In this document: one piece after another, positions 11,054 through 63,183 of the stretch
Numbering within the stretch: the first letter of the stretch is position 1
Layout: every line of letters begins with the position of its first letter
NCBI RefSeq assembly: GCF_000002865.3
Contig: NW_001865056.1
Span: forward strand, 83,247-147,246
DNA from: Monosiga brevicollis MX1
Lineage: Eukaryota; Opisthokonta; Choanoflagellata; Craspedida; Salpingoecidae
Direction of reading: 5' to 3'
DNA length: 64,000 nt
The notes under the pieces: generated by a model
Databases searched by the model: none
What the model was told of the DNA's origin: nothing
The model's input: only the letters and a program-made list of their open reading frames with translations
Translations under genes and position numbers: made by a program

Positions 11054-12169
11054 TCAAGACTGATGTTGTCCCATCTGCTGCATCATCAGCATGGACGGGT
11101 GCATGTTGTTGGGCATCATCATCGGCGCGGCCGAGTTGGGCAACTCCATGGAGGGGGCCATGGCACCGCTGGCCATCATGTTGAGGAGTTGTTGCCATGG
11201 TGGGAGGGCTGGGTTGTTGCCCATCATGGCAGCGGCAGGATTCATGCCGGGCTGGGAATGTTGGGGCGTGGGCATGGTGGTGCTGACGGCACCAGGCATC
11301 ATGTGCATGGGGTTCATCCACATCGGGGGCATGTGAAAGGGAAAATTGTTCATGCCCATGTTGGAGGCGACGGATGAGAGCTTTTGTTGAACGGCGGGTT
11401 GTGGAGGGTTGGCGCGCAGCGAGGGGCTGGCCGTGGTCCCGTTGGTGAGACCAGGGGCCGAGGCCAGGGAGTCCTTGGTCAACGCACCCATGTCGGACGC
11501 GTTGGAGCGATCGCCACTGCTCTCCTTGAGAGCGTGAATGAGTTGAGCGGCCTGATAGTCGGCCGAGTCGGTGAGGGAGCTGTTGGTGTTGACGGAGCGG
11601 GTGGCGGGAGATTCGCGGGGACTGCTCGTGTTGGAGGGTAGGGCGTGTTTCATCAAAGCGATTGAGGGCTGGGATGCCTGTTGTGGGTGATGGCTGGGAA
11701 GGGTGTGGCGTTGCTGGTGTGGCGGCTGTTGGTGTTGCTGCCCTTGTTGAGGAAGGGAGGGCGAAAACTGTTGATTTTTGAGGGCGGCACTGGCGGCGGC
11801 TGTTTCGCGCTTGAGATCGGACATGGACTTGAGATGGCGAAGATGGCGGCGGGTAGCAGCGGGAAGACATTCGGCGCGCATGAGCCAGGTGTGCGTCAGG
11901 GTGCCGTAGAGAGTGGGCTTGCGTTCAAAGGCCTTGTTGGAGGACAGGCAGTGTCGCACGCCCGACTTCCACTTTGGATGATGATTCACAAAGCTGGGTG
12001 TCTGCTTGGCCATGTAATTGTAGATTTCCTTGGTGGAGAGGCCACGATCGAGGGCCGAGTCGATGGAGCAAAAGGCAAGCGCGATGCAAGTGGCGTACGA
12101 GGCCACGTCCTCGAGGTCCATTTCCAATGCTTCCATGAAGCTTTTGGCGACGGCCGAGTTGATGGCCAT
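11054..12169 (-). CDS. Forkhead-domain-like transcription factor, single exon
   Basis: 371 aa without introns. Residues about 24-86 align with a forkhead winged helix: SYATCIALAF for SYATLIAQAI, GLSTKEIYNYM for LTLSEIYEWI, then the turn and recognition helix WKSGVRHCLSSNKAF for WQNSIRHNLSLNKCF. The rest is low-complexity. A Gln/His/Pro-rich stretch around residues 135-170 (QQGQQHQQPPHQQR) and a Met/Pro/Asn-rich C-terminus (PMWMNPMHMMPG) resemble activation regions. The expected nuclear role is DNA binding. In the recognition helix Arg72 and His73 are kept, but the two Asn positions are Gly70 and Cys74, so the sequence preference may be altered or binding weak. The start is the first ATG, followed at once by the conserved domain. 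Assignment rests on the pattern of hydrophobic residues; a few positions are unusual for the family. Confidence 0.75.
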   Translation of the reverse strand: MAINSAVAKSFMEALEMDLEDVASYATCIALAFCSIDSALDRGLSTKEIYNYMAKQTPSFVNHHPKWKSGVRHCLSSNKAFERKPTLYGTLTHTWLMRAECLPAATRRHLRHLKSMSDLKRETAAASAALKNQQFSPSLPQQGQQHQQPPHQQRHTLPSHHPQQASQPSIALMKHALPSNTSSPRESPATRSVNTNSSLTDSADYQAAQLIHALKESSGDRSNASDMGALTKDSLASAPGLTNGTTASPSLRANPPQPAVQQKLSSVASNMGMNNFPFHMPPMWMNPMHMMPGAVSTTMPTPQHSQPGMNPAAAMMGNNPALPPWQQLLNMMASGAMAPSMELPNSAAPMMMPNNMHPSMLMMQQMGQHQS

Positions 12170-15022
12170 GGCTGAACGCGCTGCGTAACTTGCAAGACGA
12201 CACGGCCGGCCGGCAGGAAGGGGTTAAGGGAAGTCTTGAGCAAAGCCGGAAATGGCCGGTCGTGCAGCGAAAGCCGGGGGGGGGAGGGGGGAGAAGGAAG
12301 AAGCTCGTTTCCCCCGGTGCCAGAGCGTAGTCGGGTGGTCAGATGACTTGAGTAAGTTCAGCTACGGTCTGGTCTGAACGCTCTAGTGCTATCAGAGCAG
12401 CGGAGAAGCGCGCCCACGCGACGAGCAAAAGCGAATGCACGTAGCAAGCTGTCAAAGGCAAAGGCCACTCACTGCCTTTGTACAACAAGAGTAAATGGCG
12501 CAGGCCGGCGGCGTCACTTGATCACGACAAGACAAGGGGTGGTGAGACCGCACACAAGCAGGGGCAGGGGGGAGGGGGGAAGACGAGTCTTGTGACAGCG
12601 CGGGCTGCCGAAACGTGGCACCGCAACTCGGTGTGGGGGGAATCAGAAAAGCAGGAGGCGTGTGACCCACGGCCACTTTGGAAGACACGAGCGAGCGTAT
12701 TGACATTCAACCAGCCAACACAATGTTGTGACTGGCCAAAGTAGCAAGCGAGCTGTGACCCCCAAAAAGAAGGGGGTGGGGGGATGGGAGAGCGTGTCGG
12801 CGAGCCGTGTGTGCTCACACGACGAGACAAGAGAGCCGAAGAGAGCCGGAGAGAGCCGAGAGAGAGAGAGAGAGACGCTGCGCACGTAGACACACGAACG
12901 ATCAGGGTGATGAACCAAAAAAAGGAAAAGAAAAATGGGGCGCTTGTGGCAGATGTCCGAACCCGTAGCTCGTGTCCGTGGTGCTGGTGGTGATGTATGT
13001 GTGGCTTTGGGCGATGAGATTGTTGAGTGAGCCAAAGTGAGTGTGTGTGTGTGTCACATGTGGGATGTCTTTGGTGGACAGAGCGTGTGCATGGGTTTGA
13101 CGCGGTTTGCAAAGTGTGCACCGGTGTTGCGCACCCACGATTGGTGTTGCGGCGACTACCTATCATCAAGGCAAGGGGGTGTGGGGGTGTAGGTGTGCAC
13201 TGCACGCACAACTGAACATTGACGTGGGTGAAGCCGCTTAGGGAACGGGTCTGTGGGTCCTGAAATCTTCGTGTCCCTCCAGTGGTATCGTGTGTGGCGC
13301 TGCAGATGTAAAAGCAGCAGTCGAACCCACGCACGAACCCACAAACCCAAAACCGTTGGTCCAATAGGTCCACAATGACATTGTTATTCACATTACAAGC
13401 GCAACCTCAACGCCCATGCGCTTGATTCGCAAGATGCGACCCTGACAAACCACTCACCCCCTTCAGACGTTTAATTAGCAGCAGTCCTCACTCGCCCCCC
13501 ATGGTCGCAAGGGGGTGGTAAGGGATTGCAGGGATGTGGTTGAAGATTGACATGTGGACATCATGGGTGCGACACGCACGCACGAACATGACTTGATCCC
13601 CTTGTCCAGAGGCGCATGCATATGGTGTCATTGGACCCTCAAATGCGTCCCAGTGGCACGGTGACGTAGGATTCGTGCCGCAGAAGCAAGAGCTTGGCGC
13701 CGTGACCTTGCACTGCTTGACGTATTCCAATCAACCCACGACCCTTTGGCTGGTGTGTCTGTGTGCGTGTGTGTGTGATCGTCCGTCGCCTGCGCACGCG
13801 AGCGTACTGCCGTCGTGCTCGGCCATGTGCTCACCCTCTTGGGAGGGGAGGCGATGCCTTTTCCGTCGACACGTAATCATCATAATAATCAATATTCAAA
13901 ACGCCCAACACGCCAAGCAAGCAAATCAAAAACAAAGAGCAATTCGCGTGGACGATGGATCATGTTGTGCGCTCGCCGCGCAGCTGCGCCCCATGCCCCC
14001 TTGCGCAGTCGGTAACCCCCCACCTCCCACAATCGTCCCGAGATTCGAGCATGCTTGCAGCTGTAAATTATACGTCATGATATCCAACCGAACCATGACG
14101 AGGGACATGACACCCGATGACACACGTTTTTTTTTTTAACATCAAGCTGCCCGCGTCGGCAACCGCTCCTGCCATACGAAGTCACAGCGCCTGCGCCTGG
14201 CGACATATGCACCCATCGGCTCCTGTTGCTTATCGCAAAGCATGAACCTGAAAGCTTGATGGCTTTCGTTTTGCAGATCAAGCAATCACACGACCACACT
14301 CACGCAACCACAACCACAACCACAACAGCAACTGCAAACAGAATCGAATGACAGGCTGCTTATCAGATATCGCCACTTTTAGTCTTGTCACATGCACGCT
14401 TTTGTGCCTATTCCTTGCATCATCCAGCAAAGGCAGCGTAAATCGGTTTGTAGCGAGTGAACAAACCACCGCACGCCCGCGATCACCATCATCATCACCC
14501 TTTGGTGTCGAAGAAAAGGCATTCGCTTTTTTTTTTTTCGTGCGACTCCACCTCACTCTGGCCAAGCTTCCTATTCTTCCTAATCAAGTCCCATATGCCA
14601 GTCCAGCCAGGCCGCCCAGGACAAACCCCCCAAGCCCTCCTCACTCATCCAACACCTCTTCACCTCATGCTCCGTTCGTCAGACCCCCGCGCTTGGCTCG
14701 TGTGACATGATCATTCTTCTTCAAACCCTTGCCCCGACCTTTCTGGGCCTGTTGCGCCTTGCTCTTCAGCCTCTTCCCTTCCACGCTGCTTTCCGTCCGC
14801 CAGCTTGTCCTGCCCGCTCGTTGCAACTCATCATGCTTGAATGCTGACGTGATGGCATTACCATCAGTCTCGCTCGCGGTTTTCTTCAATTCGCGCCGAC
14901 CTGGCACACTCTGGATCTTTCTAGATGGTTTACGCTTTCACGTGTGCCGGTGTCGCCCCATTGCCGTTGGCCACTCGGCAGCCCGGCATCTTGCTTGCAC
15001 ATGAACATGTGTTGCCCGCCCT
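12170..15022. other. Gene-poor spacer
   Basis: About 2.85 kb between the forkhead-like start and the SEC15 stop. It contains G-rich and GA-rich patches (12270-12300, 12850-12880), short GT runs and CAACCA repeats near 14305. The longest minus frame (12522-13391) has no family resemblance. An 80-codon basic minus frame at 14665-14907, rich in Lys/Arg/Gly and just downstream of SEC15, could be a small unrecognised exon, but I cannot support it. Confidence 0.5.
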
Positions 15023-56834: not shown

Positions 56835-59800
56835 TCATACGACTGAAGAGAGCGAGATCTTCCCCTTTTTGATGCGGTTGATGGTGGCTCGTCGGTTCAA
56901 TGCCAGCTGCTGCGCGACCTCGGGTGTTACTGATGCACGGGGGCTTGGCCGATTTGAGTCAACTTCCGTAATGTTGTCAAGTGCCACACCGGGAACACGG
57001 TGCGCGGAGCCCCCCGAGTCATCAGTGCCTGCGCTATCCGTATGCCGCCCCAAGCCGCCAAGTGCCACCTGTTTGTGAATGGAGTGTTCCGGAAGTCCAG
57101 GGGCAGCGCCGTTGTTGTGTTGAATACGGCGATGCGCGTTGGATGGAGACGCGTTGTGTACGGCACGTCCACCGCTGCCAGGAGCTTGTGCGCCATCCTG
57201 CACGCCATTGGAGGTCTGTGCAGGCATGCCTGAGCTCCGGGTGGGTGTCGACAGGTGCGTGTGGGGGCTTGACCCACCCTGAGCATGATTATTGGAATGA
57301 GCGGGGCGAGGAGAGGGACTCAGCACAGTGCTCAGTGAGCTTTGCGAGCGCTGTGAAGGACTCTGCTCAGTGCGTTGGGATTCCAACGAGCGCTGTGAAG
57401 GGCCAGAGTTTAGGGTGTGTTGGGCCAACTGGACACAGACGGCATGGGCGCTGCTGTAATGAGAAGCAGCCTGCTCGTTCTTGGCCAAGGCGGAGCCCGT
57501 GCGTCGCACAAGGGGGCTAACTTGAGCCAAGATAACCGGCGAAAGGCGCGAGTAGACCTGAGGAATCGGAAGTTTGCTGTTTGTTGATGCGTCGTGGCCT
57601 TCTTGATGGGCATTGTTAGACTTGTCGAGCGCCCCCATGTCCACATCTTCCACGCTGATAGCGGCAACCGAGTCGCGATTCTTCAAAGGCAACATCACGT
57701 AGTTATGTAGCACGCGGCGAATAAAATTTTTCTTGCGCCCAGTGCTTACCCCGCTGCGAATGGAATCGTTATCACCATCGCTGCTCTGGAGAGCAGATTC
57801 GCGTCCCATGGAATCCGAAGCGACGCGTAGCGTTTCCACTGCCGGTGCGTGTACGAGCGCCGGAGAAGGGCATGGCATGAGCAGCGGGCAAGGTAGCCAG
57901 TCCTGTTCCGGAGTGCTGCAAATCTTGACCAAGTCAAAGAGTGTATCAGCACAGGGCTTGCCATCAAGGCAGAATCCCAAATCATCGACGAAGGTGATGA
58001 GCACGTGGGTGATGACGCACTCGTCATCAAGGAAAGAAAGCGCAAAATTGTCCTTGCCCGTGCTACTGGTTCGAACAAGAAACAGGCCCGGACGGGAGTG
58101 CTTTGACAGTTGAGCCTCAGCTTCGGCTCGGGAGATGTCACCAAAGAACCATGGCTGGTGATTCAACTCGTCGTCGTCATCTACCACTGGCAAGGCGTTG
58201 CTGGCAAAGCGAGGGCATTCCTCCGTCAAAAATGCCGAATCTGTGGGCGTCAATCGAAAAGGCAATTCTGTTGGGGTGGGGAACAACCGAGCCCAGCCCA
58301 ACCCAAACCAAACGAGTGTTGAGTGAGAGGGAAAGAGAGCACATGACAAGACATAGCTGCATGGGGTTGTGTTGACCACGGTACGACGAGGCAATGTGGA
58401 ACATTGTATTATGTCACCAGCTGAACGTACCGGTGGGGAAGATGCAGTAGTGCACAATGAGGTCGCGCAGGGTTAAAAATGCGCGGTCAGAGTCTTTGAA
58501 GCTAAACTTGCCATCCGTCAAGCGTTCGACCAGGTAATGTGTCACTTGATCATTGAACTTCACGGACAAGGCTACCACAAGGATAGTAAAAAAAGTGAGC
58601 CGACGATGAGCAGCAACCAATACACCTCAACACAGATGCCCCTTCATTAGCTGCACCCTTCTTTGCCCAATTCTTTGAAATGTCCACTCTGACTCAGCAG
58701 GAAGACGCGGTGGATGCTCGTAGGGTCAGACACATACCAAAGCAGCCCGGTTGTGAGGTGGAGGGCCGTAGGACGAAGGCTCCGTTGGGGACGGGGTGAT
58801 CCAAGTTTGTGAGCTTGGCCATGGCTCGATCGCGGGCCTCACGAGTATGCTCCACCCAGCGCTGAAACGTTTTTTGGAGGTACATCACAAGTTCAAACGA
58901 ATCATGACCTTCAGTCGTGAAGACATGGCACTCGCGCTGATCCTGCTCATTCTTCGACACAAGATAAAACATTTCTTCGTCCACCATGATGACAACGGCC
59001 TCTATTTGCTGCAAAGGCCGAGACATGACAATGGCATGCGTGGTGGGCACGACCATGTACACGCGATTTTCAACGATGTCGCACGTCACAAAAAGCTTTT
59101 GAGCGTTGAGGGCCATGGCTGATTGTTGCAGCTGTAGAACTCGGGCCCGCAGCTGCTGCGGATCAGCCATCAAGTCATCCTTGACTGCGAAGCCAGCGAG
59201 AAAACGCGCAGTCGCCTCGCGTTGCGGCATGCTTGTGGATGGGCTCAGCGTAGCATAACGGCCCGAGCTGCGCAGGCTATTTTGGCGAACTCGACGGCTG
59301 CTCTTGGGTTCGTTAATCTCGTCCAAGTTGACGACGTGCGATGTGTTCTTGCCAGACATAAAGTCAATCTGTCCCGAGTCGGCATCTTCGTCCCTGCTGC
59401 TGGGCTCTTCCAGTTTCAAACTAATATTCATGCACTCACTACGGGAGATGGACTTTTGGTGTTGCAAGAACCACCGCGCGATGGTCAGATTCTGCGGCGT
59501 AGCCAGAGGCAAGTGGGACACGGTGTAGGGGGTGCGCTGAAATTCGCGCAAGTGTTCCAGCAGCTTGCCAACCGCACGATGCTTGTAAAAATGAATCAGT
59601 TCCTGATCGTTCTCAGACGGAATGTCTGGCTCGGCAACGGAGAGCTTGATGCGGTCCGGGTTGCCTTGTTCGCAAAACAGAACGTCCTGGCAGAAGATGC
59701 CCACAAATGGCATGGTCGGGAGCTGGCAACGACGACTAGTGGCAAAGCCATAGGCTGGCTGCCGGACCGTGCCGGCAGAAAAGAAGCCCTTGAGCCGCGA

Positions 59801-61534
59801 ACGGTACTTGGCGCGATTGTCCGAGGGGCTCAGCAGCTTCTCCATCGTATTAAAGTAGAAGCGCCACGTGTCACCCACCAGTTCCCAAGTACGCACAAGA
59901 CGGCGCACAGCAGGGTGCGAGAGGGCAGAAATGACGGCAAAGACGCCGTGCAAGTTTTGATTCTCGTCGAAACGGTCAATCAGCTGGATGAGCTTCTCCA
60001 AGTTCTGTGCGCGCTCGCGCACATCTGGCTCGGTGAGAAGAATGGTGAGGACCCAGTTGTTGAATTGATTGAAGCGTTGCGTGATGCGGTTGACGAGCAT
60101 TTCGTCGCGATTTTCACCCTTGCGCCAATTTTCCTGAAGCAGGTTGACCGCGTCAATGTGGCAAAAGTCTTCGTGGTCTAGCTTGGTCATGACGTCACAG
60201 ATCAAGTCAACATTGATTTCCTGGTGGTAGCAGGGGCCGACGCTTCGTTCCGGTACAAGGAGCACGCGGGATAGGCGCAGCTCGTGGGGATGCAGGGTAT
60301 CGGAGATGGCGAGGGCAAAGCCTGGGCAGCGAAAGCGATAAGAGTGGGCATCGATGGTCATCAGGTGGCCGCCCGAATATTGTTCAGCACCGAGGTGTCC
60401 CTGATAGTTGCGATTGGCCTGCTCAAGATCCTCGCGGCAAACCTGAACCTTGACATCTGCAAGAGTGCGCTCGGGTTCCAACTCGAACTGCATGTCCGTG
60501 CGATGACCCCCGGGTTTGGTAATCTCAATATAGAGCGGGATGGTGGCGCCTGGTTGCCAGTCCTCCACTTTGCGGCTGGGTGCAGGTGACAGGTTGAGCT
60601 TGAGGTGACTTTTCCAGGTGCAAGTGTCCGGCAAGCACTGAGCAAACTGGTACATGACCTTGACGAGGCCAGCGTCGCGATTGAAACCGTAATCAGTGGC
60701 GTGCGGCGGGTCGTGGTAGCCTTGAGACCAAACGCAAAGCAACTTGGTCACAAGATCACGATCTGTCGGGTGGTCTGCCACGTGTTGGTAGAGAAATTGG
60801 AAGACTTCCGTGGAAGAAATGAACATGCGAAAGCACATGAAGAAGTCACGAATATAGTTGGTGTCCCCGAGGCTTTGACCCTGCAAGAGTAGGGACAGCA
60901 GGCGTTGCTTGGAGCCACCGACGACGATGAACTCCAAATCATTTCGCGCATCCAAGAGCTTGACGATCAGATCACCGTGACGGACACGAAGCAGAGAGTC
61001 GTTGACGCCAGGGGTCGGCGTGGAGGTTGGAGTCGCGACGGCTGCTTTGGCTGTCGAATCAGCGCTTTTGTAGGTGGGGGCAGATGTGACAGCATCTTGA
61101 GGATTGACGCTTCGGCTACGCGAGCGATTGTCCTTGTTCTTGCGCGTTCGGTTGGGCCCGGGCATCGCTGTGGCGGTGGTGGCTGCGCCAGGATCTAGTT
61201 CAATGGGATCTGAACTAAAGCGCGCGCGTCGTCGACGCCCAAACCACTGATTGGAGCGTGGGGACCCAGATGATTGGTTTTGTGATGAGGAGCGAGAGCG
61301 GCCTGAGGAGATGGCATCGGCGTTTGGTGAAAGGTTATTGTGCGCTGTTCGCATGGCTGATAGGGCATCCTCAATGGCTAGTTCTAGCATGCCTGGATTG
61401 GCAGCACACGACAGCGCACGAAGCAGGTGGTCCGCCGTGTTCTCCGGATAGTGAACAGCGCGGCCGGGGCCGGTAGCTGCCACTGTCAGAGCCCTGTGGA
61501 GTGCAGAAAGAGTGAATCTGTACTGCGAGGAAGG

Positions 61535-61576
<42 letters not shown>

Positions 61577-63183
61577 GAAGCAGCATAAACCATAAACAAA
61601 GAGCGAAAAAGAGGGCGAGGGCTTGATACGCACGTAGGGCAGCCATAAATAAATTCAACATCACCCAGCAAGGCGGGAGCAGCGATATCGGCTAGAACCT
61701 GTCGTCGGCGACCTCGCACCTGGACAGATCCCTCAAGCAGAACTAGCCATTGGAGCAAGGGTGCGGTGAGTTGAACAAAGACGCGAAAAAAAGAGCATGT
61801 GGACATGGGCGCATGTGGTTGCGAAAAAAACTAAGGGCGAGAGGCGAAGCCCACATCATGACTCACCCCAAAAACCGTTGTGATTGGCCTGGGCCTGAAA
61901 GAGTATGTCACCAGCTTTCAGGGATGTGTGTCGCCCGAGTAATAGCACGCGGCCGAGGCGCTCGTCGACATCAAGGGCGATGCCCAACCGCTTGACTTGA
62001 TGCATCAGCGTGGGCAAGTCGGCAGCTGGGGGTGTTGGGCAAGATGACGTCTATGGAAATGTGTGCGCACGTGTGTGCGTCGTGTGCGGGGGTGTGTGGA
62101 GATAATGAGGGCATGACGATGGGGCATGGTGAGATGATAACGCTTGCTTCAAGACTTGAAGCAACCGCCTCCAAGTCCGCCACGCGCTGGTGCATTTGAG
62201 TACAAGGAACAGGGCAAAGCGGCCCACCTCAAGGACACGCGAAGAAGATGAGCGTTGAGACGCATTTGAGTCTGAGCGAGCTCGGCTCTAAGATCGGTGA
62301 TTGAAAAGATGACAACGGTCGATGAGCTGCAGAACCACAAGGAGGAAAAGTCTCCAAAGTCAGGAACTCTCGGCAACGCGGACAAGATGCAGATGACTAT
62401 ACCAAGGGCATGCGTTGACGCGTCGCATCGTCCGAAAGGGCAAAACATTTATCAACGTTGACCACCCCGTGCGGAGTGCGCTCATCGGCCTGTGTTTCGT
62501 GGAGGTTACCACAGATCACCTTGGTACTAATGGAGGCCTGTCGAGAGAGGAGGTAAAGCAGGTCTTGGTGCCCGTGTAAAAGGGCCTCATCGAGAGCTGT
62601 GTGCCCCCTGTGATTGCGAAGGTGCACGGGAAAATGGCCTGGCAGGATCAGCTGCATGCAAATGCCACGATGGCCGCGAATGGCGGCCATGTGCAGCAGC
62701 GAATTGCCCAGGGCATCGCGGATGGCTTGGGTTTCTGCTGGCTGCAGGGGAGGAGAAGGCAACCCAACGCGGGAGCGGGGCCTCGAAAGATGAGGGTGGC
62801 GGCGACCCTGACCAAAGGCAAAATCAAATGCGTGGCAGCGCATCGCGGGACGATGGGCGAAGGAAGGGTTGGGCTCACCAAATAGCCGTTGGCCCCGGCG
62901 GCAAGTTGCACGATGTCACCGGATATGCAGGCCTGTACCCGGTACCAAGACAGCCGAGCAGGGCAGGGACAGCGGTGTGAGGGGTGCTGCACAGCCTCCT
63001 AGATGTTGGGTTGGCAGCGGCCTTACCTCGACCAAGGCCTGCGAAGCATCTGTTGATGGCTGGTTTGCCCAAAAGGCCATGGAGACCATGGTGGGTGAGT
63101 CGAAGTGGGAGATGTGAGCTCCAGGCTGAGAGCCAGGCGGTAGCGAGGGGTCGATGTACAAGAAAGGTTGAACTTACATCCAT
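56835..63183 (-). CDS. Multidomain Ras-family exchange factor: ANK-cNBD-REM-RA-RasGEF-PTB-SH2-SH2
   Basis: About 1702 aa. Eleven exons: 63183-63178, 63125-63027, 62932-62879, 62741-62520, 62287-62228, 62186-62142, 62050-61867, 61742-61634, 61493-58738, 58571-58431, 58267-56835. Order by residue: ankyrin-like repeats about 40-120 (GNSLLHMAAIRGHRG; GHTALDEALLHGHQD); Ser-rich linker and short coiled coil; cyclic-nucleotide-binding fold 170-290 (LKAGDILFQ; GDVEFIYGCP); REM 428-513; RA-like region 573-673; CDC25-type RasGEF 676-948 (FNQFNNWVLTILL; HGVFAVISALSHPAVRRL; MPFVGIF); PTB 1021-1138 (ECHVF and the C-terminal helix); SH2-1 about 1138-1222 with FVLR (Arg1169); SH2-2 about 1265-1350 with WFFGDISRAEAEAQL and FLVR (Arg1291); Ser/Pro/His-rich tail to 1702. 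REM-RA-RasGEF behind a cNBD is the EPAC layout, without a DEP domain. The cNBD phosphate-binding Arg appears to be Thr. The start (a two-codon exon) is tentative; exons 63125 onward are firmer. Predicted role: nucleotide exchange on a Ras/Rap GTPase, directed by phosphotyrosine. Confidence 0.85.
61535..61573. repeat. A39 homopolymer (T tract on gene strand) in RasGEF intron
   Basis: It sits between the two exons that meet inside the cNBD. On the minus strand it is a T tract about 40 bp before the 3' splice site. Confidence 0.95.

Follow-up and report, generated by a model that had tools for sequence, protein, structure and literature searches.

The question raised by this locus is whether phosphotyrosine reading and the activation of a Ras-family GTPase are joined in one protein of the choanoflagellate Monosiga brevicollis. 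The window, i.e. the whole stretch of DNA that was analysed, comprises 64,000 nucleotides of contig NW_001865056.1 (positions 83,247 to 147,246). One predicted gene on its reverse strand (56835..63183) encodes ankyrin repeats (ANK), a cyclic-nucleotide-type domain (cNBD), a REM domain, a CDC25-type RasGEF (guanine nucleotide exchange factor, GEF), a marginal phosphotyrosine-binding (PTB) domain and two SH2 domains. The domains and their order are seen in the sequence, and their sharing of one chain is a gene prediction. We think it fairly likely that the product is a Ras-family GEF that would be brought to tyrosine-phosphorylated membrane proteins by its own PTB-SH2-SH2 tail, without a separate adaptor. 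That it exchanges nucleotides, is recruited, binds phosphotyrosine and inhibits itself is inferred from the known roles of such domains, and so is a Ras-family target GTPase.

Domains of the predicted protein

Domain calls were made with the curated cut-offs of Pfam on the spliced protein and on isolated segments. In addition, the organism's own assembly (39.47 Mb, 57 contigs) was searched exon by exon. The gene and its parts are as follows.

56835..63183, reverse strand: whole predicted gene, 11 exons, 1702 amino acids in a single spliced frame
62523..63029, reverse strand: ankyrin repeats, residues 35-126, from the end of exon 2 to exon 4 (Pfam Ank_2)
61421..61924, reverse strand: cyclic-nucleotide-type domain, residues 205-284, exons 7, 8 and 9 (Pfam cNMP_binding)
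60758..60925, reverse strand: REM (RasGEF_N), residues 450-505, partial Pfam match
60263..60550, reverse strand: putative RA-like segment between REM and GEF, residues about 575-670 (bounds set by eye)
59576..60199, reverse strand: complete CDC25-type RasGEF, residues 692-899 (Pfam RasGEF)
58853..59215, reverse strand: putative PTB (PID), Pfam match at residues 1062-1139, N-terminal strand from residue 1020 by eye
58447..58831, reverse strand: SH2-1, residues 1148-1220, split by intron 9 (Pfam SH2)
57924..58151, reverse strand: SH2-2, residues 1265-1340, exon 11 (Pfam SH2)
56838..57923, reverse strand: C-terminal tail, no Pfam match, ending in SSVV

The GEF matched positions 3-181 of the 181 in the RasGEF profile with 137.4 bits (E 6.1e-40 in the whole protein, 1.8e-40 in the genome search). 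It is conserved across the full profile, including PFVGIFCQDVLFCEQGNPD and ELIHFYKHRAVGKLLEHLREFQ, and the complete CDC25-type domain named in an earlier sequence-only reading of this DNA was thereby borne out. The two SH2 stretches jointly reached an E value of 5e-30 in the whole protein. Taken alone, SH2-1 scored 53.5 bits (2.6e-14, profile 9-77 of 77) and SH2-2 scored 61.8 bits (6.6e-17, and 2.1e-15 in the genome search). The motifs are FVLR (within 1164-1174) and THY in SH2-1, and FLVR (within 1286-1295) and ITH in SH2-2. The Arg of FLVR-type motifs belongs to the phosphotyrosine pocket; this Arg and the His of a later strand are retained in 2/2 SH2 domains.

The PTB call is marginal. Its PID match passed the cut-off of 20.9 bits only in isolation (25.0 bits, E 2.2e-5, profile 53-134 of 140) and in the genome search (24.6 bits, E 6.0e-4, 58853-59092). 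In the whole protein, the ankyrin repeats reached 30.0 bits (cut-off 27.3, E 7.6e-7), the cNBD 31.2 bits (cut-off 27.5, E 2.2e-7; 35.9 bits alone) and RasGEF_N 33.5 bits (cut-off 28.3, E 5.2e-8; 5.8e-8 in the genome search). Eight domains had been named from the letters alone. The ankyrin, cNMP_binding, RasGEF and both SH2 domains lie above the Pfam cut-offs, as does RasGEF_N with its partial match, and the PTB is borderline.

The eighth, an RA-like segment, found no support by sequence. Pfam detected no RA in the whole protein or in the isolated segment, and none of the 6 places with an RA in the genome coincides with it. A sequence search of the PDB returned a single match at E 0.12, a designed immunogen, which was not counted as support. 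DEP and PDZ were absent from the protein in Pfam searches with E values up to 10 (0/13 DEP places of the genome lie on this contig), and Pfam gave no RhoGEF or PH match in it.

The last residues of the tail, SSVV (56838-56846), fit the class I PDZ-ligand pattern, and an RRAT motif stands shortly upstream.

Gene model and the single-chain question

The exons of the gene model are as follows.

63183-63178, 63125-63027, 62932-62879, 62741-62520, reverse strand: exons 1-4
62287-62228, 62186-62142, 62050-61867, 61742-61634, reverse strand: exons 5-8
61493-58738, 58571-58431, 58267-56835, reverse strand: exons 9-11

All introns have GT-AG borders (10/10), and the 1702-residue frame of the spliced model is uninterrupted up to its stop. 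The 11-exon model built here has the same gene coordinates and the same splice joints (61742/61493 and 58738/58267) as the sequence-only reading.

The part from the cNBD through SH2-2 is very probably one predicted chain, because introns 7, 8 and 9 split domains, a joint frame of 986 residues runs between them and SH2-2 lacks a start of its own. The cNBD is interrupted by introns 7 and 8 and SH2-1 by intron 9, and each domain is whole again after splicing. The 986-residue frame, read from stop to stop (58694-61654), spans the end of the cNBD, REM, the GEF, the PTB and the N-terminal half of SH2-1. Intron 10 interrupts no domain, as it falls 5 residues beyond the Pfam match of SH2-1. In the frames used by exons 10 and 11, the first Met (57878) comes only downstream of SH2-2, with none before or within this domain. 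Hence, SH2-2 could hardly stand as a separate gene and would need the upstream exons. When exon 10 is read past its donor, a stop follows soon.

Every exon except exon 5 had its top codon score in the chosen frame, and for exons 2-4 and 6-11 the score was positive in this frame and negative in both others. Exon 5 showed no coding signal (0.01 bits per codon), with another frame scoring better. Exon 6 (0.16 bits per codon) lay inside the null range, and the short exons 2 (0.11) and 3 (0.19 bits per codon) were below the 90% point of the length-matched null. This null covers the short exons; the longer ones were scored without it. As intron 8 scores as coding in 3/3 frames, the codon score is of limited reliability. 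The same intron contains a run of 39 uninterrupted T (window 61535-61573, coding strand).

The least certain parts of the model are the start codon and exons 5-6. Because these two exons are weak, the link of the ankyrin repeats to the remainder is less sure, and the one gene of the sequence-only reading stands more firmly from the cNBD onwards. The ankyrin part may be a separate gene; the second gene could then begin at 62195, where an ATG shares the frame of exon 6. When exons 5 and 6 (60 and 45 nucleotides) are skipped, the frame is retained and the ankyrin repeats stay in frame.

Exchange factor, scaffold or cyclic-nucleotide sensor

In the proposed mechanism, the PTB-SH2-SH2 tail would bind receptors or scaffolds at the membrane that carry phosphorylated tyrosines, and its two SH2 domains in tandem would prefer partners phosphorylated at two sites. 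Docking would concentrate the REM-GEF part near a lipid-anchored Ras-family GTPase, on which REM and CDC25 would carry out the exchange. An inhibition by the N-terminal part would perhaps be relieved on docking. The degenerate cNBD, rather than sensing cAMP, might provide a protein-only gate or a surface for dimer formation. The target may be Ras or Rap.

A GEF predicted to be active is the reading we favour, since the domain resembles active exchange factors much more than it resembles BCAR3. It is also preceded by a REM, at least in part, and REM stabilises active CDC25 domains. When the REM-GEF part was compared with PDB chains (phmmer), the highest scores were those of RasGRF1 (62.4 bits), Cdc25 (7nzz, 54.5), RalGPS1 (53.5) and Epac2 (49.7), followed by SOS1 (41.2), RasGRP2 (35.7) and BCAR3 (3t6a, 13.8 bits, E 0.13). 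The title of the RasGRF1 chain (PDB 2ije) speaks only of a guanine nucleotide-releasing protein, and we take it to be RasGRF1. With the whole protein as query, RasGRF1 gave 56.6, RalGPS1 48.0, Epac2 47.3 and Cdc25 46.4 bits. The rank order beneath RasGRF1 is not firm, and Epac is not singled out. No GEF subfamily is given, because the bit-score margins are small and the reference sequences too few for a tree.

Several observations weigh against a self-recruiting, active GEF. The REM match covers only positions 2-57 of the 106 in its profile. In the whole protein, the PID match (19.6 bits) falls under the cut-off, and a phmmer search of the PDB with the PTB region retrieved no PTB. In the region of SOS1 Leu938-Glu942, the Leu and a Gly-Asn-Pro are kept and Gln stands instead of Glu. 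As Cdc25 (7nzz) has His at this place, the Gln alone is no predictor of inactivity. Moreover, the evidence consists of the gene sequence of one genome. The closest animal precedents also speak against the reading, as follows.

In the NSP family (BCAR3/NSP2, SH2D3C/SHEP1 and SH2D3A), an SH2 and a CDC25-type domain share one chain, as in the window protein, and a link to tyrosine kinases is likewise shared, according to the parts of the sources considered here (PMC11083344, PMC10532290). The GEF-like domain of SHEP1 is described there as closed, inactive and without exchange activity (PMC10532290), and the GEF activity of BCAR3 as not conclusively demonstrated (PMC11083344). Because these nearest animal SH2-CDC25 proteins are inactive or unproven GEFs, the window protein could be a scaffold of the same kind, in which CDC25 would serve as a protein-binding platform without exchange use and the PTB and SH2 domains as extra docking sites. 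We regard this as unlikely, though it is the most serious alternative. The Gln at the Glu942 place agrees with it. It fits poorly with a GEF that fills the Pfam profile at 137 bits, matches RasGRF1, Cdc25, RalGPS1, Epac2 and SOS1 at 62 to 41 bits and BCAR3 at just 13.8 bits, and is preceded by an at least partial REM. With 13.8 bits to BCAR3 against 62.4 to RasGRF1, the window GEF is not of the NSP type in sequence. The layout differs as well: BCAR3 has its SH2 at the N-terminus and CDC25 at the C-terminus, whereas the window protein has the reverse order and two SH2 domains. The NSP accounts, as far as these sources were available, mention no REM, cNBD, PTB or ankyrin repeats, all of which are predicted here.

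A different descent would be suggested by the N-terminal half. EPAC (RAPGEF3/4) and PDZ-GEF (RAPGEF2/6) have the order cNBD-REM-CDC25, and the window protein shares it. A descendant of these families whose cNBD still binds cyclic nucleotides would unite second-messenger and phosphotyrosine inputs, and the cNBD match does exceed its cut-off. The cassette GDVEFIYGCPTALTV, aligned to GELALIYGTPRAATV of PKA RI-alpha, has Thr in place of Arg and Asp in place of Glu. The cassette Arg holds the cyclic phosphate; as it is replaced, cyclic-nucleotide binding is not expected. PDZ-GEF is a precedent for a cNBD without such binding. The window protein further differs from both families by the absence of DEP and PDZ and by the added PTB-SH2-SH2, and Epac2 is not the top PDB match of its GEF, although the margins are small. 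The label 'EPAC-like' of the sequence-only reading was therefore dropped. The amoebozoan proteins GbpC and GbpD also combine cyclic-nucleotide-binding domains with a RasGEF in one chain, along with DEP and a protein kinase, and phosphotyrosine readers are unmentioned in the part of the source considered (PMC4758236). Their existence lends the descent some plausibility; taken together, we hold it to be improbable.

That the model fuses at least two adjacent genes, most likely with the ankyrin part apart from the rest, is more improbable still: the weak signal of exons 2, 3, 5 and 6 and the ATG at 62195 speak for it, whereas the restored intron-split domains, the one frame from the cNBD end to SH2-1, the missing Met of SH2-2, the best scores of all exons but exon 5 in the chosen frame and the frame kept on skipping exons 5 and 6 speak against it.

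Related genes and adaptor routes in the genome

The profile search found 114 SH2 pieces in the genome and 20 RasGEF pieces, which were grouped by proximity into 14 loci. The number of SH2 pieces fits M. brevicollis, as does a 52-residue piece of a Sec1-type gene of the assembly, which has 47/48 aligned residues identical to PDB chain 2xhe_A ('UNC18'), a chain from this species. In the exon-wise search, an SH2 lay within 15 kb at 1/14 RasGEF loci only, namely the window locus, where GEF and PTB are 0.7 kb apart. A complete GEF and phosphotyrosine readers very probably share one chain there, which bears out the core of the sequence-only reading. At the RasGEF locus C43:559-560 kb, the SH2 places are 15.8 and 16.5 kb off, beyond an assumed single gene. 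The search missed the cNBD and SH2-1 of the window gene itself. As an exon-wise search misses domains that are split by introns, further domains of this kind could lie unseen in other RasGEF genes.

Pfam scans of reading frames covered 7 frames from 6 other RasGEF loci, 10 frames of C6 and 5 of C55:2.55 Mb; the loci on C44, C56, C54, C43:481 kb and C47 were outside these scans. The open frame of L024 had no Pfam match. At L020 (C55:520-526 kb; L020:3-5207), a single long frame encodes DEP, ankyrin, FERM_M and RasGEF domains. FERM_M is just under its cut-off there, as is a weak IRS-type PTB, and no SH2 is present. Among the loci L017-L030, the L020 GEF was the top tblastn match of the window GEF (24.6% identity, E 4.7e-16). 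Both genes are large RasGEF genes with ankyrin repeats; that of L020 differs by its DEP and FERM and its lack of SH2.

A second RasGEF-PTB gene was considered on C6 and rejected: the PTB lies 4.8-5.1 kb downstream of the RasGEF and apparently belongs to a different gene. By eye, this PTB (C6:43019-43201, forward strand; L018:1-900) resembles a GULP-type PTB with a coiled coil behind it. The window PTB had no match at the C6 locus.

Elsewhere in the window, a long open frame on the reverse strand (11057-12223) carries a Forkhead domain (Pfam E 8.9e-12).

The sequence-only reading had proposed that the protein would replace the GRB2-SOS relay. That relay would likewise couple phosphotyrosine to Ras-family activation; it consists of an adaptor and a GEF, whereas the window protein is one chain without DH-PH. 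A GRB2-type gene is present at about C51:713092-711760 (reverse strand; L045), with SH3, SH2 and SH3 exons in this order (frames read by eye). A CRK-like SH2-SH3 gene (L038:1066-2274) forms a single frame of 402 residues and adjoins a run of N. For M. brevicollis, CRK orthologues are reported to be expressed, and Crk is reported also in Salpingoeca, in the part of the source considered (PMC5043372). As GRB2-type and CRK genes are present, adaptor routes exist, and a replacement of GRB2-SOS cannot be claimed.

What stands of the proposal is that no SOS-type gene (DH-PH-REM-CDC25) was recognised, in a search that misses split domains and an assembly that may be incomplete. The exon-wise search found a RhoGEF within 20 kb at 0/14 RasGEF loci. 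A PH lies 6.6 kb downstream of the RasGEF locus on C29, an order unlike that of SOS. According to a paper on Hydra, both Salpingoeca and Monosiga have homologues of Shp2 and Grb2, and 'at least these two' components predate animals; the paper also sought Sos and Crkl, and in the part considered Sos is not listed for these two genera (PMC7260276). This silence is weak evidence, because Crk is equally unlisted there and yet reported elsewhere (PMC5043372). It is a fair hypothesis that a direct route runs beside the adaptors or substitutes for an absent SOS.

A phosphotyrosine reader fused to a GEF is also known from VAV, which joins SH2 with a DH RhoGEF; the GEF of VAV is thus of the DH type and that of the window protein of the CDC25 type. 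VAV-like loci are separate in this genome (RhoGEF, SH2 and SH3 at C56:3446253-3448529).

The unusual domain layout is real as a gene prediction, with a distant animal precedent in the NSP proteins. The sequence-only reading had known of no animal counterpart, and this holds only in part: NSP proteins do join SH2 with a CDC25-like domain, and their exchange activity is absent or unproven in the sources considered (PMC11083344, PMC10532290). The gene is not a new sequence, and its domains may well figure in automatic annotations or in surveys from 2008. The genome paper of M. brevicollis reportedly dates from that year. In an open literature search, the domain combination was not named in the titles or abstract starts among the matches listed, which is not proof of its being unpublished. 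The same search retrieved no paper for 'Monosiga' with 'RasGEF'.

Tyrosine kinases and SH2 proteins are numerous in choanoflagellates, as stated in the part of the source considered (PMC3507883). The first coupling of tyrosine kinases to Ras is a question in the origin of animal signalling. A self-recruiting GEF would be a concrete candidate for a direct link, although the gene alone is no proof of such a role. A bolder version, which we consider doubtful, is that this chain would be a main direct route by which tyrosine kinases act on a Ras-family GTPase in a choanoflagellate with GRB2 and without a recognisable SOS, independent of the animal GRB2-SOS route and perhaps older than or an alternative to it. 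The predicted gene suggests that phosphotyrosine readers were fused straight to a CDC25 enzyme outside animals. If this is true, signals from tyrosine kinases could be passed to a Ras-type switch with no adaptor protein in between.

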